DNA of 36,102 nt. Source: an uncultured Actinomycetes bacterium. GTDB taxonomy: Bacteria; Actinomycetota; Acidimicrobiia; Acidimicrobiales; RAAP-2. A program made the translations under genes and the position numbers. The notes under the pieces are model-generated. The model saw only the letters and a program-made list of their open reading frames with translations. It ran no database searches and was not told the origin of the DNA. Position 1 is the first letter of the stretch; the number at the start of each line of letters is the position of its first letter. The stretch lies in the NCBI GenBank assembly GCA_903870905.1, contig CAIQEU010000002.1:1-36102 (forward strand). Direction: 5' to 3'. Positions 14,392 through 34,733 of this stretch are shown here, piece by piece.

Positions 14392-17300
14392 ATGCGCACG
14401 TTCCTTCGTTCCACCATCGCTGCGGTTGCCGTCACCGGCGCTGTAGCGACCGTACCAGCCAGCACCGGTGCTGCGACCGCTCCAGCTGGATCACGCCAAG
14501 TGATCGTGCTCATGAAGGGAGTTGAAACCACTGGCCTGCGGTCTGCGAACCTCCGTATCGCTGAGAGCGCATTGACCGGTGCCATCGCCCGAAGTGGCGG
14601 CAGTGTTGCCCAAATCATGACCGCGCCCTCGGCGCTCGTCGTCAATGCCACGTCGAGCACCATCGCTGCACTTGAGGGCAACCCCCTGGTCGCCGGCATC
14701 TACGCCAACGGCATCATCCACGGTCCAACGGTGGCTCACCCGTCGATCACGGTGCACCACGCCGCAGCGAAGACCGGACACGTCGCCCCTGGCCTGTGTG
14801 GCACCTCAAGTGACCCCCAACTCAACCCAGAGGCGCTCTCGGCAATCAACGCCCCGGCGGCATGGGCCACCTCGATCGGAGCTGGCGTGAACGTGGGGTT
14901 CATGGCCGATGGAATCGACACCTCGAACCCTGACCTCCAGCGCAACCCGAGCTTCGCTGCCTCATCTGGTGATGCTGGAGCTCCAGTCATCACGAGTGCC
15001 GTGGACTTCTCCGGTGACGGCACCAACGCGACAACGGGTGGTGGCGAGGCATTCCTCGACGCATCGTCCATCGCCGCACAGGGCAACTCCACCTACGACA
15101 TCTCCAACCAGGGAAGTTCGGTCAACCCCCTCCCGGCAGGTTGCGACATCAAGATTGAAGGTGCAGCCCCGGGCGCAACCGTGACTGCCCTCAAGGTGTT
15201 CGGTCAAACCAACTTGTCGACCAACGTCGGATTCGTTGAGGCCATCAACTACGCCGTGACCCACGGCGTCAAGGTGCTGAACGAATCCTTCGGCTCCAAC
15301 CCCATGCCCTCAACCACCGCCGATCTCATCCGCGCTGCTGACGATGCCGCTGTTGCTGCTGGAGTGACGGTGGTCGTATCGACGGGAGATGCTGGTTACA
15401 ACTCAACCATTGGTTCTCCCGCCGATGACCCCAAGGTCATCGCTGTTGGCGCGACGACGACACTCCGTGGCTACGCCCAGACCACCTACGGCGGCATCAA
15501 CGCACCGGGATCCAACGGCCAGTGGATCAACAACCAAATCTCGTCAATTTCGTCCGGTGGCGTCGCCGAGGACGGTCGCACCGTTGACCTCGTCGCTCCT
15601 GGAGACCTCAACTGGGCGCTCTGCTCAGCGAGTTCGAACTACAGCGATTGTGGTGGAGCGTCGGTGGAGTTGAGTGGCGGAACCTCGGAGTCATCACCAT
15701 TGGTTGCCGGTGCTGCCGCAGACGTGATCGCCGCCTACGCCAAGGCGCACAACGGCACCTACCCGACCCCCGCAGTGGTCAAGGCCATCTTGACCGGGAC
15801 GGCCACGGACCTCGGTGCGCCGGCAACGGGCCAGGGATCTGGACTGCTCAACGTCGCCAAGGCCGTCAACGTCGCCAGCCACTACGCGACGAAACTCAAG
15901 ACCGCTGGTGGAGGCGTGACGGCTTCCACCTCTGGCGTCATCATCAGTGCCGCTCCTGGCAAGTCCGTCTCGCAGAGCGTCACCTTCACCAATTCCACTG
16001 CAAAGGCAGCGAAGCTCACCCTGAGCGGACGCGAACTGGTCTCGAGCGGCGTCGTCGATGGCACGGTCACCTTAGACCCGAGCTCCACCACGACGCAGCC
16101 AACGTTCCCCATTTGGAGTGGGGTCAACGAGATCTACCAAACGGTTCCGATCACGGTGGCGAAGGGAACGGCGTACCTACGGTTCATCACGTCCTACCCC
16201 TACAGAGGGCAGACCTCCCTCCTGCACGTCGCCCTCTTCGACCCGAGTGGCGCCTACGCCGGGTACTCCGATACGCAAGGCCTCGCCAACTCCACGTCCA
16301 ATGAAGTGGCGAACCCAGCGAAGGGTACGTGGACTGCGGTGCTCTTCACCTACGCCAACGCTGGCGGGTCCGGAACCGGCACCTCCGGCGTCGTGCACTA
16401 CGAAGCTGACTCCTTCACGACGGCGAAGGTCGCGATCGGAGCATCGTCGGTGAACGTACCGGCCAATGGCTCGACAAAGGCCACGCTCAAGTTCGTCATG
16501 CCGAGCAGCAGCGGCGACACCTCCCTCGCCGTGGTCGTCAGCACCCCAGGGCAGAAGTTCACGATCCCGGTGACCGAGCGGGTGACGGTTCCCGTCGTGC
16601 AAGGGCTTGGAACCTTCACCGGAACGGTTGCCGGCGGTAACGGCCGAGGTGGTGCTCCAGCGCAGACGAGCACGTACACCTTCGCCGTTCCCGCAGGGGC
16701 GAAGAACCTCCAAGTCTCGATGGAACTCGACCAGAACCGACCAGCAGGTGTGCTCATCGGTAGCCAGTTCGTCGCCACACTCATCGACCCAACCGGTCAG
16801 GTCATCGCCGAGGACACCAACCTCTCGATCGACACCAGTCAGAATGAGAACGTTGCCCCGTGGCTGTCGCTCTTCGCCAATGCCCCGGTGCCCGGCACGT
16901 ACCAGGTGGTCATTCAAGTGGCCAACCCGGTGGGCGGCGGCAACACCTCCACCACGTTGAACGGTCAGGTCACCTTCAACAGCGTGGTCGTGACTGGATC
17001 GCTCCCCTCCAGTGCCGCCACGACCGTGTCGGCAACCTCGGGAACAACGGCGACGATTTCGGTGACCAACAACGGGTACGCACCGCTCATCATCGGGGCA
17101 GACCCCCGTCTGACCACAACGACCACCGCAACCTTGAGCGATGTCAACGGTGCGCCGTCGACCCAGGCGTTCAACAACTACTGGACGTACTTCGTTCCAC
17201 CGTCCACCCAGTCGGTGACCGAGCAGATGACGTCGACGCTCCCCGCCAGCTTCGAGTTCACCGCTGACCTCGGCGACCCGAGCCTGTCGCCGCTCGTGCC

Positions 17301-17775
17301 CACCATTGGCCAGACGAGCACGCAGAACTCCACCGATGCCTCGTTGACCTGGGCGCCCTCAACCGGCGTCGCAACGGGCCTCTACGGTGTCGTGCCGCAA
17401 CCAACAGGCGTCTTCACGACGACGCCTGTCGGATCGGGAACCGCCACGTCGACCTTCACCGCCACCACGAAGGCGCTCGACCCCGCCATCACCACCGATG
17501 CCGGGAACTTCGTCAGCTCCACCTACGGCCTCAACACCGTGGACAAGGTGGGCACCGTGGTGAACCCGGGCGACACGGCGACGATCACCGTCACCATTGC
17601 CCCGACTGCCGCTGTTGGCTCCGTGGTCCACGGCACGCTCGGCATTGAGTCCATCAGCGTCGGAGGCGCCCTCGAGTACGCCTTCGGCATGAGCAACGCT
17701 GGCTACATCGTCCAGAGTGACCCGCAGATCAGCATCCTCGGTTCGGTGCCCTACACCTACACCGTCGGCAGCTGA
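14392..17775 (+). CDS. Secreted subtilase-fold peptidase with sedolisin-like Ser-Glu-Asp residues (1127 aa)
   Basis: A signal peptide (about 1-28) is followed by an I9-like propeptide (about 35-111) and a subtilase-fold domain (about 145-495). The subtilisin Asp position reads A172-D173-G-I-D (not D-T-G), the His motif reads G-E219-A-F-L-D223 instead of HGTHVAG, the oxyanion Asn is D333 (STGDAG), and Ser432 is kept (GGTSESSP). E219, D223, D333 and S432 match the sedolisin (S53) Glu, Asp, oxyanion Asp and Ser. It may thus be a Ser-Glu-Asp peptidase, or a non-peptidase relative. About 630 residues of beta-sandwich and PPC-like segments follow, suggesting surface or matrix attachment; no anchor motif is seen. 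The start has a GGGGGG site. The gene stands alone and ends at a strong hairpin. Confidence 0.8.
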   Translation: MRTFLRSTIAAVAVTGAVATVPASTGAATAPAGSRQVIVLMKGVETTGLRSANLRIAESALTGAIARSGGSVAQIMTAPSALVVNATSSTIAALEGNPLVAGIYANGIIHGPTVAHPSITVHHAAAKTGHVAPGLCGTSSDPQLNPEALSAINAPAAWATSIGAGVNVGFMADGIDTSNPDLQRNPSFAASSGDAGAPVITSAVDFSGDGTNATTGGGEAFLDASSIAAQGNSTYDISNQGSSVNPLPAGCDIKIEGAAPGATVTALKVFGQTNLSTNVGFVEAINYAVTHGVKVLNESFGSNPMPSTTADLIRAADDAAVAAGVTVVVSTGDAGYNSTIGSPADDPKVIAVGATTTLRGYAQTTYGGINAPGSNGQWINNQISSISSGGVAEDGRTVDLVAPGDLNWALCSASSNYSDCGGASVELSGGTSESSPLVAGAAADVIAAYAKAHNGTYPTPAVVKAILTGTATDLGAPATGQGSGLLNVAKAVNVASHYATKLKTAGGGVTASTSGVIISAAPGKSVSQSVTFTNSTAKAAKLTLSGRELVSSGVVDGTVTLDPSSTTTQPTFPIWSGVNEIYQTVPITVAKGTAYLRFITSYPYRGQTSLLHVALFDPSGAYAGYSDTQGLANSTSNEVANPAKGTWTAVLFTYANAGGSGTGTSGVVHYEADSFTTAKVAIGASSVNVPANGSTKATLKFVMPSSSGDTSLAVVVSTPGQKFTIPVTERVTVPVVQGLGTFTGTVAGGNGRGGAPAQTSTYTFAVPAGAKNLQVSMELDQNRPAGVLIGSQFVATLIDPTGQVIAEDTNLSIDTSQNENVAPWLSLFANAPVPGTYQVVIQVANPVGGGNTSTTLNGQVTFNSVVVTGSLPSSAATTVSATSGTTATISVTNNGYAPLIIGADPRLTTTTTATLSDVNGAPSTQAFNNYWTYFVPPSTQSVTEQMTSTLPASFEFTADLGDPSLSPLVPTIGQTSTQNSTDASLTWAPSTGVATGLYGVVPQPTGVFTTTPVGSGTATSTFTATTKALDPAITTDAGNFVSSTYGLNTVDKVGTVVNPGDTATITVTIAPTAAVGSVVHGTLGIESISVGGALEYAFGMSNAGYIVQSDPQISILGSVPYTYTVGS

Positions 17776-22504: not shown

Positions 22505-24262
22505 ATGCGTAGCATCGGTGAGGTGACTGCTGCCATCGCCTCCATCCGCTCGCTGACCTGGCGGCAGTGGCTCGTCGGCATCGTCGCCTTGGCGATCGTC
22601 ATCGCCCCGCTTCCTCGCCTCTACGGCGCAACGGCAACGTCGATGGAAGAGGGGTCGATTCTCGAGTACGCCACGTTGACCCTCCACGGATCAGTGCCCA
22701 CGAAGGACTACTGGACGGAGTACGGACCGCTCAACGTCTACGTGCCGACGGTGGCGTTCGCGGTCACCGGGCCCTCGGTTCCCGTGGAGCGCACCGTCGG
22801 CCTGCTCTACCGAGCGGTGCTGATCCTGGCACAGTTCAGCCTGCTCCGTCGGTTCTCTCGACGAGGGGCGTGGATCGGCGCCCTCCTCAGCTGGTTTGCC
22901 ATCGCTCCCTTCGGGCTCATGGCCTACAGCTTGATCGGTGGGTTGGGGTGCACCCTCGCGGGCCTCGCGCTGTTGACCTCTGCCCTCGACCGTGACCCAC
23001 CATCGACACGAGCGCTGATCGCTGCGGGGATCGCGTACGGCGTTGGCCTCGGCTTCCGCCCCGACCTCGTCCTCGTCGCCGTGCTCCCAGCATCCATCCT
23101 TCTCTGGCGACGGCGGAGCACGCTCCGGCCGTTACTCGTGAGCGCGGGTGCCACGATCGCCGTCCCCTACGGCATCTTGCTCGGAACCGCTGGGTTCTCC
23201 AACGTGGTGCGGTGCCTCCTCATCGATCCCCTCATCCACCTTCGAGCTGGACGGGCGCTTCCGGTCCCGCCCTCGTTCACCCTCGTTGGCGAGTACTTCA
23301 CCCGAGTCACCTCATACTCCGACGCACTTGCGGGCCACAACTGGCTCGGCGCCCAGGCCTCGGTCCAGATCGCCGAGTTCTTCTGGGTCATGATGGCAAT
23401 CGGCGTGGTGTTGATCCTCTCCATCATTGGCCCACTCCGTTCTCGAGATCGGCGATGGGTTGCTCTTGCGATTGCTGCGCTGCTCCTCGCAAGTGATTTC
23501 CTCCAGCGCACCGACCTCTCCCATATGCGCCAAGTCGGTTGCGTGTGGCTCGCAGTCGCCCCAACCGCAACGATGGTGATCCTCCGCAAGCGATTCACCC
23601 AGCGAGAGGTGACCATCAGCTGGGCAACGGTGGGTCTCTCGCTCATCGTCTTCCTCGTGGCGCCCGTCCAAGTCGTGCTCGGGTTCACCAACCTGTTCCA
23701 CGCTGCACCCCACCAGCGGGACAACCGCACCGTGGTCGTCAGCCACGAAGGGCGAACCGTTCCGACGGGGAGTTGGATCGAAGCGGCGTTCATGCACCAA
23801 ATCGTCAATGAGGTGAGCCACCACTCGCATGCCGGTGAATCGTTCTTCGAAGGCCCCGTCGACCTGCGGTTCACCAACTACAACGAGCCGATCCTCTACT
23901 GGATGGAACCACAACTCCGCCCATCGACCTACTACCTCGAAATGAACCCCGGCATCTCGAACACCGCAACATCCGGCCTCGCCGCAGAGGTCGGCAACGC
24001 CGATGTCATCGTCCTCTCAAAGCGCTACGTGGCCTTCACCGAACCCAATGCGTCGACGCACCCTGGATCGAACGCTCCGAACATCGTGATCGCCCAACAC
24101 TTCTGCTTCCAGATCTCGAACCCTTACTACGTGCTCCTCACCAAGGTCCACGGTCGCGAGCTCGACCCGCAGAGGATGCCCAAGCACGATGTGCTCCGGG
24201 TTGGCAACCACCTCGAAGCACGCTGCAGCGCGCTGCAGCCCCTGACGAGTTCCAGCCACTAA
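22505..24262 (+). CDS. Polytopic GT-C-type membrane protein, putative glycosyltransferase (585 aa)
   Basis: About ten to twelve hydrophobic helices through residue 400, then a hydrophilic C-terminal part (about 405-585), probably extracytoplasmic. The first outer loop carries acidic residues E48-E49 (SMEEGSIL) and the DYWTEYGPLN motif (68-77), as in GT-C enzymes such as ArnT and PMT-like transferases that use polyprenyl-phosphate sugars. The acceptor is unknown. Start: ATG at 22505 after a GGGGGG stretch. It is divergent from the ECF sigma gene and may be part of its regulon. A second membrane protein of similar plan lies at 30395-32440. Confidence 0.65.
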   Translation: MRSIGEVTAAIASIRSLTWRQWLVGIVALAIVIAPLPRLYGATATSMEEGSILEYATLTLHGSVPTKDYWTEYGPLNVYVPTVAFAVTGPSVPVERTVGLLYRAVLILAQFSLLRRFSRRGAWIGALLSWFAIAPFGLMAYSLIGGLGCTLAGLALLTSALDRDPPSTRALIAAGIAYGVGLGFRPDLVLVAVLPASILLWRRRSTLRPLLVSAGATIAVPYGILLGTAGFSNVVRCLLIDPLIHLRAGRALPVPPSFTLVGEYFTRVTSYSDALAGHNWLGAQASVQIAEFFWVMMAIGVVLILSIIGPLRSRDRRWVALAIAALLLASDFLQRTDLSHMRQVGCVWLAVAPTATMVILRKRFTQREVTISWATVGLSLIVFLVAPVQVVLGFTNLFHAAPHQRDNRTVVVSHEGRTVPTGSWIEAAFMHQIVNEVSHHSHAGESFFEGPVDLRFTNYNEPILYWMEPQLRPSTYYLEMNPGISNTATSGLAAEVGNADVIVLSKRYVAFTEPNASTHPGSNAPNIVIAQHFCFQISNPYYVLLTKVHGRELDPQRMPKHDVLRVGNHLEARCSALQPLTSSSH

Positions 24263-26002: not shown

Positions 26003-28363
26003 CTACTGGGTCGCGGTGATCACGACGTAGGCGCTCGTCGCCACCGGAGCCGTGGTGTTCGTGTCGTAGACCGTGATCGCAGCGGTTGCACCACCTGCAC
26101 CAACTTGGAGGTAGTAGAGGTTGCGCGTTCCGATGACCACCTTCGTGGCAGATCCAGCAGGATTCGTGATACCCGTTCCGGTAATGGAGTAGTCGATCCC
26201 CGCTTGGACCGAGGGTGTCGGTCCAGCAGCGACGAGGTCCGCAGAGCCGTTATCGGTGAACTCGATGAGGTAGTTCCCCTGTGCGAGCGTGACCGAGGCA
26301 GTCCCCTTCTCGGCGTTGAATGCCTTCCCTCCAGCGAGGTTCGTAATGCCCGAGTAGGAGCCGGGGGTCAGCACGACGGTGACGACGTGTGGCCCACCTC
26401 CCTGGGGACCTTGAGGGCCTGTTGCACCTTGAGGACCTTGGAGACCCGTAGCCCCGGCCGCACCTTGGGGCCCCGAGGGGCCTTGGGCTCCGGCCGAGCC
26501 AGAATTCCCTTGGGTACCTTGGGGACCCTGGAATCCAATGATGCCTTGGGGGCCTTGGGCTCCTGGGAAACCCGAAGCGCCTTGAGGGCCTTGCGTACCA
26601 CTTGCACCTTGGGGTCCCGAAGGACCGTTGGCACCAGCAAAACCTTGGGGACCTTGGGGACCGGTGTAGCCCTGAGCGCCAGTTGGACCAGCCGAACCGG
26701 CCGCACCTTGAGGTCCTGCCGGTCCGGTGTAGCCCTGAGCTCCTGCGGGGCCGGCGCTTCCTGCGATGCCCTGAGGGCCTTGGGGACCACTTGCTCCTTG
26801 AGGACCAGCAACACCGCTGTAGCCCTGGGCGCCCGAAGGCCCTGCCGAACCGTTGGAACCAGCGGTGCCTTGGGGGCCTTGCGTCCCGATGCCGGCAGTT
26901 CCTTGGTAGCCCTGGGGGCCTTGGGCTCCAGAGGACCCGGCGGCCCCCGACGTTCCCTGCGGGCCTTGAGGGCCACCACCAGCCACGCCTTGGTAGCCCT
27001 GGGGGCCTTGGGCTCCAGAGGACCCGGCGGCCCCCGACGTTCCCTGCGGGCCTTGAGGGCCACCACCAGCCACGCCTTGGTAGCCCTGGGGGCCAGAGGC
27101 GCCTTGGGGGCCTTGAGGGCCAGTGACTGACAGTCCCTGCGCACCTTGGGCACCTTGGGCTCCAGAGCTACCCTGAGGACCAGCGGCTCCTTGGACACCT
27201 TGGTAGCCCTGTGGTCCACCGAAGGCACCTTGTGGACCTTGGGGACCGGTGACCCCTTGCGCTCCCTGGATACCCTCTTGACCGGTTGCACCCTGAGCAC
27301 CTTGGGCGCCGGTTCGACCCTGCGTTCCTTGGTAGCCCATTGCGCCTTGGAATCCAAGGCTTCCCGCCACACCTTGGGAGCCCTGCCCACCAGCGGCGCC
27401 GTCAGCGCCTTGTGGACCCTGGGGGCCGGCCGAACCTGAAGATCCTTGCGACCCTTGCGTTCCAGCACCCTGGAAGCCTTGTGGGCCTTGAAGACCGCTA
27501 CTCCCAGTGGGACCGGCCGATCCCTGAGGACCGGGAGAACCTGCCCCCGTCGCACCTTGAGGACCTTGGGGACCCGTTGACCCGGAGGCGCCACTCGCCC
27601 CTTGCGCACCCTGTGCTCCCTGCACACCTTGAGAACCTTGGGGGCCGACCCCACCGGCTCCACCTTGAAGTCCTTGGGCACCTTGAGGGCCGTTCGCTGG
27701 CCCTTGAGGGCCTTGCGACCCTTGGGGGCCTTGGACACCGGGGGTGCCCGCAGCGCCTTGTGACCCGCTCTGGCCCGTTACTCCCTGGAACCCTTGCGAC
27801 CCCTGAGCACCCTGGAAACCTGATGGTCCAGAACTCCCCGATTGCCCCTGGGTGCCTTGATGTCCCTGCGCACCTTGGAAACCTTGGGCTCCTTGCGCAC
27901 CGGCAGGACCCGAGGATCCGGTCCGACCTTGGTAGCCCTGCGATCCTTGAGCACCAGCCGGACCGTTCGAACCCACGGCGCCCTGAGGTCCTTGTGGACC
28001 GATCCCACCTTGGGGACCAATCGCCCCTGGAACTCCCTGCACCCCTTGGGCACCATTCGGACCTGTCTGCCCGGGAGCACCTTGGGGCCCTTGAACCCCT
28101 CCGGTTCCTGCCGTTCCTTGGGGGCCTTGTGCACCCTGGGGTCCTCGCGCCGCAGTGTTGTTGGCGAGATTCCACACCACGAGCGTCATTCCCGCTGCGC
28201 ACGAGTGGCGGTAGGGCGCCACGTTAGAAATTGAACCGCTCTTCAAGCAGCCATACAGCGACGTGGGGGCGGCGGCGCCGACCTCTTGGGCCGATGAAAC
28301 GCCGACGGTGACGCCGAGCAGCATCACCGTCGTGACGGATGGCAACTTCTTCGAAACGTGCAT
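26003..28363 (-). CDS. Secreted collagen-like protein (786 aa)
   Basis: A signal peptide (about 1-32) precedes a small domain with C39 and C55 ([10 protein letters not shown] ... [12 protein letters not shown]), the usual N-cap of actinobacterial collagen-like proteins. Residues 74-658 are Gly-X-Y repeats dominated by G-P-Q and G-A-Q, broken at intervals by GGG, GSPG or GAG irregularities. The C-terminal 128 residues (from H659) form a separate beta-rich domain that could act as trimerisation or adhesion head. It should form an extracellular triple helix. Pro is common in X but rare in Y, where Gln prevails. The ATG has GGGGGAG just upstream. The dioxygenase gene follows by 7 nt. Long antisense frames over this gene are composition artefacts. 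Confidence 0.93.
26901..27094. repeat. 87-bp tandem duplication inside the collagen-like gene
   Basis: An 87-bp unit starts at 26901, 26988 and, as a partial copy of about 20 bp, at 27075. The two full copies appear identical at DNA level and encode a 29-residue block ([15 protein letters not shown] and following). Other triplets in the gene vary at codon level, so this is a recent in-frame duplication that changes the helix length. Confidence 0.9.
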
Positions 28364-30224: not shown

Positions 30225-30394
30225 CGACGGCTGAGTGACCGTCGACGAAGAGGCATCGTCGCTCCGAGAACCCGATGGGACGGGACTCCCGGGCCGCCCG
30301 AAGGCCCGAGATGGCGTCCGTTATGCTCGAGAGGTGTTCGGCAGTTCTCGGCGTGGCCGACAGCAGATGCCATCGAGAACCGCGGAGGCCGGGA

Positions 30395-32440
30395 ATGGTC
30401 GGAGTGCTCTCTCCTGAACCGAAGGTGATGGCTCCGGAGACGACGACGGATCGTCGGCAGTTCACTCGGGCGCTGCTGGTCACGAATGCGGCCCTCCTCA
30501 TTCCCGCCCTATGGCTCGCATTCGGCGACTGGCGAAGCCACCTCACGCTGTTCCCCCTGACCCCGCAGGGGAACCTCTACGACCTCCAAGCCAGAGCGAT
30601 GCTGGCTGGCCGTCTGAACGTGCCGACCAATTCGCTCGGCATCGAGGGATTCCTCCACGACGGCAAGACCTCCACCTACTTCGGCATCTTCCCGTCGATC
30701 CTCCGGATGCCAGTCTTGGTGTTCACCCACCACTTCGATGGGCGCCTCACCGCAGTCTCGATCTTCCTCGCGTGGTTGGTGACCTGCGCCGCGATTGGCG
30801 CCATGGTGGTGCAGCTTCGAACGATCCTCCGGCGTGACCTTCGAGCGAGTCGCCTCGAACGCATCGCCACCTGTGCGCTGGCCGCTGCGATGTCCTTGGG
30901 GACCATCTTCCCGAGCTTGTTGGCGACGCCCCGGGTGTACGAAGAGGACATTGCGTGGTCGATCGCCCTCGGCATCCTCTTCTTCGTCGGCGTCCTGTCG
31001 TTCTTGGTCAGACCGGGAAGGGCTCGATTCGCCGTTGTCTCCCTCATCACACTCGCTGCCGCTACGAACCGGGGCTCAACTGGCGACGCGTGGATCCTCG
31101 CCATCTTCGCCTTGGCGGTGTTCTTCCGTTGCTCTCGTCACGGCGCAACGTGGCGTCGTTCTGCGAACTGGTTCTTCGCGCTCGGAGCCTTCAGCGCCAT
31201 CGTGGTGCTCGCCCTCTCCTACGCCAAGTTCGGAACCCTCACAGGATTCGACGAGCGGTACCAGGTGTGGACCTCCGTCTACCCACACCGCAAGGCTTTC
31301 CTCGACGCCAACGGTGGTACTCCATTCGGTCTGCAGTTCCTCCCCACCACGTTGCTCACCTACTTCGCGCCGTTCGCGGCGTCACTGAAGGGCCTCTTCC
31401 CCTACGTGCACCTTCCGTCACATCCCGTGCAGGCCGTCGGTCACGTCACGTTCGATCAAATTTGGCCGACCGCCTCGTTGACCGCCACGACGCCGTTGCT
31501 CGTCATCTTGAGCGTTGTTGGGACTGTGGTGGTGCTGGCCAAGCCATCGACGACCATGGAGCGAGTTCTCCGGATTCTGGTGGGAGCGTCGATCGTCGCC
31601 ACAGGCCCCGTCCTCATCTTCGGGTACATCTGCCCGCGCTACCTCGGCGACTTCGTTCCCTGGCTCGTGCTGGCAGGCGGAATCGGTTTCTTCTTCCTCC
31701 TTGAGCGCGCCCAGAGGTTCCGGTCGTGGTTCTTCGGCGTCGTCATCGTCTGCTCGCTCCTCGCGGTAGTCATGAACCTCGCCCTCGCAGCAGGCATGCA
31801 ACCGTCGTGGACGAGTACCCAGGCCGAGAACTTCACTCGAGCACAACTCCAGCTGAGTCCCGGAGCGCTCGCTCATGAGATCTCTCGCTCGGCATCCCTC
31901 CCGATCGACGCGCCACCGGGGCACATCGTCATCGTTGGGGCGTGCCAGGGCGTCTACCGAACCCTCGGACCTCAAGCGGACATCCCTTTGTCCAACCTCG
32001 AACACAACAGTTGGTTCGCCCTCGCCCCGACCGTCGGCGCGGAGGCCACCTTGTCGCTCCACATCACCCGCACTCCCACTCGAGCCGATGCCGAAGTTGC
32101 CCTCATGACTCGTGGGAGAATGCGGCTCGTGCTCCGCCCGATCCGCACCGGAGTTGTCCGATTGGTCGTGGAGCATCCAGTTGCTCAGCTGCCAGATGTC
32201 CGGCACCGATCGCACGCAATCGTCGCCGTGGCCGGCACCACTGGGACGATCGAGGTGTCGATCGATCCATACCTCGAACGCACCTCGATCGCGGGATTCA
32301 ACAACGTCCTGCCCACCTCGTTCGCTGGCCCCGGGGTCACTACCTACCCGGCGGTCACCTCATCGTGGGTCACCGTGGCCACCAATCGGCCCATGACCAC
32401 CAGCCCACTCTGCCGAGAGCTGCTCGACACGCTCGGCTGA
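30395..32440 (+). CDS. Large polytopic membrane protein, putative GT-C glycosyltransferase (681 aa)
   Basis: An N-terminal helix (about 26-43) is followed by a loop with D63 (GNLYDLQARAML) and YFGIFPSILRMP (95-106), then about nine more hydrophobic helices to residue 500. A hydrophilic, beta-rich outer C-terminal domain (about 510-681) follows. The architecture matches GT-C membrane glycosyltransferases that take lipid-linked sugars outside the membrane. No donor or acceptor can be named. The open frame begins at 30275, but the ATG at 30395 has GGAGG 6 nt upstream and is the natural start. Confidence 0.65.
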   Translation: MVGVLSPEPKVMAPETTTDRRQFTRALLVTNAALLIPALWLAFGDWRSHLTLFPLTPQGNLYDLQARAMLAGRLNVPTNSLGIEGFLHDGKTSTYFGIFPSILRMPVLVFTHHFDGRLTAVSIFLAWLVTCAAIGAMVVQLRTILRRDLRASRLERIATCALAAAMSLGTIFPSLLATPRVYEEDIAWSIALGILFFVGVLSFLVRPGRARFAVVSLITLAAATNRGSTGDAWILAIFALAVFFRCSRHGATWRRSANWFFALGAFSAIVVLALSYAKFGTLTGFDERYQVWTSVYPHRKAFLDANGGTPFGLQFLPTTLLTYFAPFAASLKGLFPYVHLPSHPVQAVGHVTFDQIWPTASLTATTPLLVILSVVGTVVVLAKPSTTMERVLRILVGASIVATGPVLIFGYICPRYLGDFVPWLVLAGGIGFFFLLERAQRFRSWFFGVVIVCSLLAVVMNLALAAGMQPSWTSTQAENFTRAQLQLSPGALAHEISRSASLPIDAPPGHIVIVGACQGVYRTLGPQADIPLSNLEHNSWFALAPTVGAEATLSLHITRTPTRADAEVALMTRGRMRLVLRPIRTGVVRLVVEHPVAQLPDVRHRSHAIVAVAGTTGTIEVSIDPYLERTSIAGFNNVLPTSFAGPGVTTYPAVTSSWVTVATNRPMTTSPLCRELLDTLG

Positions 32441-33812: not shown

Positions 33813-34733
33813 TCACGAATGGTTCCCCAACCGCCGCAGATCGAACGTTCCACCTGCATCGATCACTCGCACGAGATCACCGACTTCCTCAAGCGCCTGT
33901 TCCAGTGAGATCGTGAGACCTTCATCACGGGTCATGTTCTCCCATTCCACTCCCCACCCAGGTTCGGGGGTCATTGCTGGTGGCCACGGATGGAGACCCC
34001 GAAGTTGAAAGATCTCAATGCAGGCGCGTCGAGTCGGCTCGGCGCTTCCTTCGCACAAGGTTCTGAGCAGCATGAGATCGGCGAGATCTCGCACACGAGC
34101 ATTCTCTCGATCGTCAAAGCGCTCAGAACAGGCATGAAGTTTCTGAGCAATTTGATAGCGCAAGGGGAGAAAAGCTACGGACGGAGGAACGGAGAGGTTG
34201 ACGCGCGAGAGGTCGAACGCCAATGCGACACGCTCCGGGCTCGCCGCCGACTCACCCTCAGCCGTGGAGATCTCCAAGGGAATCGTGATGAACGCCTTTC
34301 CTCGGTAGCTGACCTTCACGTCGACACGTACGGGCTTGGGTGAAACCGTCGCACGGGCAATTTCCATTGGCTCGCTGACAATCGCCGTGAAGCCGCTCCA
34401 GCCCCGCTCCAGAGCGTCGCTCGCGAGGGCAAGGCAGACTCCGATATCGCCTCGGAAGCTGGCGTCGAGATCAAGCGAGGATCGAGCAGCGAATCCAAAG
34501 CGCATCTCCATCGCAGTGCCACCCTTGATGACGAACCGATCTCGACCGAGTTCATCCGTCAAACCATCGAGAGCTGAGGCGATCGCGACCGCTCCAATGA
34601 GTCGGCGGAGACGACCAGCCGTCGACGGTGAACCAGAACGGGGAGTGGTCCGGCCCTCTGGATTCTCGCGGGACCACGTATCGATCAGTGAGGCGAGGTC
34701 CTTCTCTCGGCGGGGTGCTTCCGGCGAGTCCAC
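33813..34733 (-). CDS. abiEii: AbiEii/AbiGii-family nucleotidyltransferase toxin (306 aa)
   Basis: Toxin component of a type IV-like AbiE system. The nucleotidyltransferase motif is complete: K70-G-G-T-A (FVIKGGTAMEMRFG) and D88-x-D90 (SSLDLDASF), then the later motif RYQIAQKLHACSERF ... RVRDLADLMLL with its lysine and aspartates. Members bind nucleotides and impair growth when the antitoxin is missing, and some protect against phage. The GTG start lies 2 nt after the antitoxin stop, with AGGG upstream. The first 40 residues are a polar extension. The pair lies just right of the tRNA scar, probably as island cargo. Confidence 0.9.
   Translation of the reverse strand: MDSPEAPRREKDLASLIDTWSRENPEGRTTPRSGSPSTAGRLRRLIGAVAIASALDGLTDELGRDRFVIKGGTAMEMRFGFAARSSLDLDASFRGDIGVCLALASDALERGWSGFTAIVSEPMEIARATVSPKPVRVDVKVSYRGKAFITIPLEISTAEGESAASPERVALAFDLSRVNLSVPPSVAFLPLRYQIAQKLHACSERFDDRENARVRDLADLMLLRTLCEGSAEPTRRACIEIFQLRGLHPWPPAMTPEPGWGVEWENMTRDEGLTISLEQALEEVGDLVRVIDAGGTFDLRRLGNHS

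Follow-up and report, generated by a model that had tools for sequence, protein, structure and literature searches.

In the 36,102-nucleotide stretch of DNA analysed here (the window), the open reading frame at 14392..17775 on the forward strand, the longest of its region, most probably encodes an active Ser-Glu-Asp endopeptidase, which by its chain and propeptide is a subtilase (clan SB) and which would work by the sedolisin mechanism at low pH. From the sequence we infer its activity, its acid optimum, its action as an endo- rather than an exopeptidase and its role in nutrition. The same combination is kept in about two dozen other actinobacterial relatives, which argues that we are probably dealing with a real, unrecognised type of acid protease that bears on the origin of sedolisins. 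By the usual teaching, catalytic residues and propeptides set S8 and S53 apart as two families. The family described here combines S53 residues with an S8 propeptide and chain; it would have survived as an intermediate or else represent a second run of the same conversion.

The predicted protease and its active site

The only Pfam domain found in the window protein is Peptidase_S8 (PF00082; residues 163-478, 99 bits, profile positions 1-282 of 288). Together with the alignments and a structure model biased to the S8 fold, this match supports the sequence-only reading, in which the gene product was taken for a secreted peptidase of the subtilase fold with a sedolisin-type Ser-Glu-Asp site. The residues named in that reading are all at their places, namely A172 in GFMADGID, E219 and D223 in GGGEAFLDASS, D333 in STGDAG and S432 in GGTSESSP. 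The features of the gene and the protein are collected in Table 1.

Table 1. Features of the protease gene and of the encoded protein, with their positions in the window
Feature	Position	Strand	Basis
Complete gene, predicted secreted Ser-Glu-Asp subtilase, 1127 aa	14392..17775	+	ORF call; ATG start; full-length homologues 35-49% identical
Sec-type signal peptide, about residues 1-29 (MRTFLRSTIAAVAVTGAVATVPASTGAATA)	14392..14478	+	Sequence reading; predicted cleavage site
I9-type propeptide, about residues 35-110	14494..14721	+	PF05922 in 5/8 family members, PF09286 in 0/8
Catalytic domain, residues 130-500, subtilisin fold	14779..15891	+	PF00082, 99 bits; AlphaFold2 model; VIA match to 2z2x
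Ala172-Asp173, place of the lost S8 catalytic Asp	14905..14910	+	Alignments; 173 is Asp/Glu in 22/24
Glu219, proposed general base; place of the S8 His and of the S53 Glu	15046..15048	+	Family, S8 and S53 alignments; hhalign
Asp223, proposed partner acid, S53-type, on the same helix as Glu219	15058..15060	+	Alignments; hhalign; predicted helix
N297-E298-S299, "CHO" tripeptide of the catalytic core, N-x-S type	15280..15288	+	S299 invariant; framework of PMC11593635
Asp333, oxyanion-hole position (Asn in S8, Asp in S53)	15388..15390	+	Alignments
Ser432, nucleophile, within GGTSES	15685..15687	+	Alignments
Conserved cysteines C136, C251, C411, C420	14797..15651	+	Family alignment
C-terminal region, about 627 aa	15892..17772	+	Family members: weak hits (fn3_5, PPC, Ig-like), mostly below cut-offs

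To establish which residues correspond to each other, the protein was compared with two sets of enzymes. The first comprised 49 phage-borne S8 enzymes from viral contigs, all of which (49/49 in each column) have Asp opposite position 172, His opposite 219, Asn opposite 333 and Ser opposite 432. The second was drawn from Actinomycetota and comprised 19 S8 and 10 S53 proteins; the S53 controls were picked by the PF09286 activation domain or by sedolisin motifs, and one of them was verified against the PDB, where it matched sedolisin (1GA1/1GA6) at 7e-55. In these same-phylum sets, the residue facing E219 is His in 19/19 S8 proteins and Glu in 10/10 S53 proteins, that facing D223 is Val in 18/19 and Asp in 10/10, and that facing D333 is Asn in 19/19 and Asp in 10/10, while S432 faces Ser in S8 and in all ten S53 proteins. 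Just as in these alignments, unguided hhalign of the family against S53 placed GGEAFLD on YGEETLD. The results clearly showed the changes that had been named in the sequence-only reading as separating S53 from S8 (His to Glu, an Asp four residues on, the oxyanion Asn to Asp, with Ser kept), and that Ala172 occupies the place of the S8 Asp. Thus, the protein lacks the Asp-His-Ser triad of S8, with A172 in place of the Asp and E219 in place of the His, and Asp replaces the S8 oxyanion Asn in 25/25 family members. What it has instead is the set of S53 residues: Glu at the position of the S8 His, Asp four residues further on and Asp at the oxyanion position.

In the published description of the serine-carboxyl core, the acid and base segments of S8 give way to a helical "BaseAcid" pentapeptide, E-x-x-x-D, and the oxyanion Asn is changed to Asp (xxGD), together with TS, and with N-x-S or S-x-S elsewhere (PMC11593635). 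The counterparts in the window protein are EAFLD, STGD, TS and NES, so that by its sequence the protein fits this published core.

AlphaFold2 run on the window protein and one relative gave a pLDDT of 31. When the alignment was deepened with the 49 S8 enzymes from viral contigs, which biases the model to the S8 fold, pLDDT rose to 75.9 and pTM to 0.84. The resulting model is a subtilisin fold that superimposes on Tk-subtilisin 2z2x (VIA Z 34.6, rmsd 2.3, 279 residues aligned), a match to be read with the S8-rich alignment behind it. In Foldseek and VIA searches with the model, subtilisins were the best among the matches listed, and no S53 chain was among them. In this S8-biased model a predicted helix, 218-228, carries both E219 and D223, one helical turn apart; confidence is low around D333 and between about 357 and 395.

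Taken together, these features suggest how the enzyme may work. After Sec export, the I9-type propeptide would be removed. Ser432, the nucleophile, would have Glu219 as its general base/acid, and Glu219 in turn would be held by Asp223, one helical turn further on; Asp333 would sit in the oxyanion hole where S8 has its Asn. Since a Glu/Asp/Asp site of this kind would require protonated carboxylates, activity would be expected at acidic rather than neutral or alkaline pH. Most likely, the role of such an enzyme would be extracellular protein digestion at low pH. The conserved cysteines (C136 in 23/24 members, C251 and C411 in 25/25 each, C420 in 24/24) probably form two disulfides, with a putative pairing. 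The C-terminal region of about 627 aa probably folds into several beta-sandwich (Fn3/PPC-like) domains, as the weak matches in family members suggest; no membrane anchor was seen in this region of the window protein.

The protease gene is a solitary one, flanked by a divergent TauE-like exporter gene on one side and by an enoyl-CoA hydratase gene on the other. No functional link to the adjoining genes (TauE-like exporter, aldolase, enoyl-CoA hydratase) is suggested, and a promoter and terminator scan found nothing. Elsewhere in the window, about 8 kb from the protease gene, a 786-aa ORF on the reverse strand (26003-28363) has a very strong Pfam Collagen match (2.4e-73, in three stretches), which predicts a collagen-like triple-helix protein in a bacterium. 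An AbiEii nucleotidyl transferase (a type IV toxin-antitoxin/abortive infection toxin) is encoded at 33813-34733 on the reverse strand, and two long ORFs on the forward strand, 22505-24262 (585 aa) and 30275-32440 (721 aa), have no Pfam match at 1e-5.

A sparse family in Actinomycetota

Relatives were gathered from Actinomycetota genomes by whole-genome searches, with the protein as a query and then with a catalytic-domain profile. A wide gap separates the family from everything else: intact members are found at E <1e-90 and score at least 329 bits, while ordinary S8 enzymes appear at about 1e-26 and weaker, and anything else scores at most about 110 bits. Thus delimited, the family comprises 25 sequences; they come from three classes and at least eight families of Actinomycetota and are 38-74% identical in the catalytic domain. 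These include one relative on a GTDB contig from a palsa metagenome, found by short patterns, and a copy on a megaplasmid of Streptantibioticus cattleyicolor. This latter member (L033) lies on pSCAT at NC_016113.1 828763-831708, where the record has no annotated gene. Sequence searches of viral contigs and phages found no relatives.

The spread of the family is patchy. Within the window's own taxonomic family the gene is present in 5/61 genomes, and in 0/4 congeners. One relative genome (G1025) bears six or seven copies (contigs C26, C51, C56, C58 and C61; loci L105, L109 and L111-L115), two of them in tandem; a frame break divides one copy (L114/L115). By its sequences, this pattern points to recent expansion and decay. 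As judged from the sequences sampled in Actinomycetota, the family is sparse but coherent, and automatic annotation would label its members "S8 family peptidase".

The alignment of the 25 members clearly showed that the catalytic positions do not vary freely among homologues: E219 and D223 are conserved in 24/24 each, D333 in 25/25 and S432 in 24/25, the sole loss of Ser432 being in the frame-broken copy L114. Since 43 of the 351 columns of the alignment are invariant, the probability that four columns named beforehand would all be invariant by chance is about 2e-4; this conservation is not due to chance. Position 172 is Ala, Pro or Gly and in 0/24 cases Asp. The neighbouring position 173 is Val in one intact member (L050). 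In kumamolisin, Glu32 is an extra acid that supports the triad; the acid at 173 sits one residue off that place, and this shift, like the Val of L050, speaks against our preferred explanation.

The same conservation bears on whether the protein is a catalyst at all. The canonical Asp and His of S8 are gone from the family, and inactive subtilases with lost triads, such as CspC, exist, so the S8 triad might have decayed, with the acidic residues kept for structure or binding and not for catalysis. We regard such a pseudo-protease as highly unlikely: across at least eight families there is no variation in the Glu/Asp pair, the oxyanion residue, the GTS turn or the nucleophile, and what has replaced the S8 residues matches exactly a mechanism known to work. 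Besides, a decaying enzyme would lose its serine, which here happened solely in the frame-broken copy. The dead enzyme that the sequence-only reading had left as an alternative is thereby made unlikely, and an active Ser-Glu-Asp protease remains our preferred reading.

As for the acid activity of the family enzymes, it is perhaps indicated by composition. Lys and Arg together make up 4.2% of the catalytic domain in the family, 4.1% in S53 and 7.0% in same-phylum S8 (p 9e-8 versus S8), a difference confounded by lineage. In archaea, S53 has been correlated with acidophily (PMC6411800). In our samples, S53 genes are present in 14/17 genomes of family carriers, 5/59 of the phylum sample and 22/34 of related non-carriers; the window's own genome has two true S53 sedolisins with PF09286 (L040, C78:13637-14041, and L042, C39:165992-166384). 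Indirect support for acid activity would come from this low Lys/Arg content, which is like that of S53 and clearly below that of S8, and from the abundance of S53 in the carrier lineages. We considered the co-occurrence with S53 as a sign of an acid niche of the gene itself and rejected it, since carriers and related non-carriers are similar (14/17 versus 22/34, p 0.33), thus indicating a property of the lineages and not of the protease gene.

Origin of the sedolisin-type site

The propeptide had been described from the sequence as I9-like and unlike that of S53. At the family level this holds, with I9 (PF05922) found in 5/8 members examined, one of them above the Pfam cut-off (L031, 27.1 versus 21.2 bits), and PF09286, the S53 activation domain, in 0/8 (E up to 1); I9 fell below Pfam detection in the window protein itself. 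The segment DVTxG...GxDxxTGxG, a sequence motif that marks the S53 calcium site, occurs in 9/10 S53 controls; every complete family domain lacks it and ends, much as in S8, with QGxGLLN. Pfam applies PF00082 to S53 as well as to S8, and in the family this profile covers the domain over its whole length, whereas S53 domains are matched in their middle only. With the family profile as a query against the PDB, subtilisins were best (E 7e-23), and no S53 chain was among the 60 matches listed.

The excess of similarity to S53 was localized by masking. Before masking, hhalign scored the family against S53 at 112, while S8 groups reached 31-88 against S53, and the family against S8 scored 173-275. 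When the motif regions were masked, the score against S53 dropped to 61-64, which is what ordinary S8 groups reach; against S8 it stayed at 168-249. Everything specifically S53-like is confined to the active-site motifs, because masking removes the excess score; outside these motifs, judging by these profiles, the family is no closer to S53 than S8 is. This pattern would fit an S8 enzyme with a converted site.

These data speak to the idea that the family is a divergent true S53 sedolisin that has merely swapped its propeptide. All of its active-site residues are of the S53 type, and in the unmasked comparison it is the group most similar to S53. Against this stand the subtilisin matches in the PDB, the whole-length match to PF00082, the missing calcium-site motif and the fall of the S53 score to an ordinary level on masking, so that we consider such a swap extremely unlikely. 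The family is not to be filed as S53 because it lacks PF09286 and the calcium motif and its relatives in the PDB profile search are subtilisins; on sequence grounds, it belongs neither in S53 nor under the triad definition of S8.

For a subtilase with a converted site, two origins are compatible with our preferred explanation, and phylogenetic trees were built with the catalytic columns removed. A first quick tree, in which the Glu columns of S53 were misaligned, placed the family inside S8. An anchored tree placed it outside S8, with S8 forming one side of a branch (support 94/91; segment ends partly anchored, two S53 serines misassigned), and so did the best-anchored tree with a support of 68/52. 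Nesting of the family within either of two S8 groups was not rejected by the AU test (p 0.42 and 0.34).

One origin would be that of a relict of the transition from S8 to S53, which shares the Glu-Asp site with S53 by a single origin and has kept the S8 propeptide and C-terminal part. The two careful trees, which put the family outside the sampled diversity of S8, favour it; the support varies with the alignment, however, one tree nests the family in S8 as the AU test also allows, and the surplus similarity to S53 disappears once the motifs are masked. We hold this origin for possible, with a likelihood somewhat short of one half. The other would be convergence, in which the sedolisin-type site arose independently inside S8. 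This agrees with the S8-like character of the family outside the motifs, in sequence, propeptide and the C-terminal part of the catalytic domain, and with the AU result, but the careful trees mildly favour a position outside S8, and three matching changes along with similar flanking motifs (SGD.G, GGTS..PL) must then arise twice. We give convergence nearly an even chance. Stated in full, it would make the family a third lineage of clan SB, in which the whole sedolisin mechanism, with Glu-xxx-Asp on one helix and the Asp oxyanion residue, was built a second time, independently, from ordinary subtilases with an I9 propeptide; we propose this tentatively, as a little less than an even prospect. 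If true, it would provide a natural second experiment in turning a neutral or alkaline His-type protease into an acid Glu-type one.

With either origin, the order of the steps from His to Glu catalysis becomes testable with real enzymes, and it appears that the propeptide and the calcium site need not change along with the active site. In practical terms, acid proteases are probably hidden among the proteins filed as "S8 family peptidase", and the family may be a new source of acid-active enzymes of the subtilisin type.

Comparison with known systems

Classical D-H-S and ED-S families are named after Siezen et al. 2007 in PMC9549277, and the title of the 2007 article, as cited there, announces further subfamilies with different catalytic residues. 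Our searches, which covered published papers, found no description of the present family. Siezen, Renckens and Boekhorst reportedly described in 2007 a sedolisin-like subset outside classical S53, with Glu and Ser of the sedolisin kind and with the Asp said to be on a beta strand and not on the Glu helix. Such a description would speak against placing our family in the subset, since here Asp223, which never varies, shares the helix of the Glu, and the acid on the strand (173) is less conserved.

With the sedolisins of MEROPS S53 (sedolisin 1GA6, kumamolisin 1GT9), the family has in common the Glu base, the Asp four residues on in the same helix, the oxyanion Asp, the Ser in GTS, the N/S-x-S tripeptide and the low Lys/Arg content. 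In contrast to them, it has an I9-type propeptide, an S8 sequence profile and a long C-terminal region of beta-sandwich type, and it has neither PF09286 nor the DVTxG...GxD calcium motif after the serine. With the subtilases of MEROPS S8A, it shares the whole-length PF00082 match, the subtilisin fold of the model, the I9-type propeptide and the QGxGLLN domain end; it differs from them in the changes of Asp to Ala, His to Glu and oxyanion Asn to Asp, and in the invariant Asp223. Five traits have been given to tell sedolisins from subtilisins (PMC6278154): the Ser is homologous, Glu replaces His, the Asp is non-homologous, the oxyanion hole contains an Asp, and the calcium site lies elsewhere. 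Of these, the family has the first four and, as judged by the motif, lacks the calcium site.
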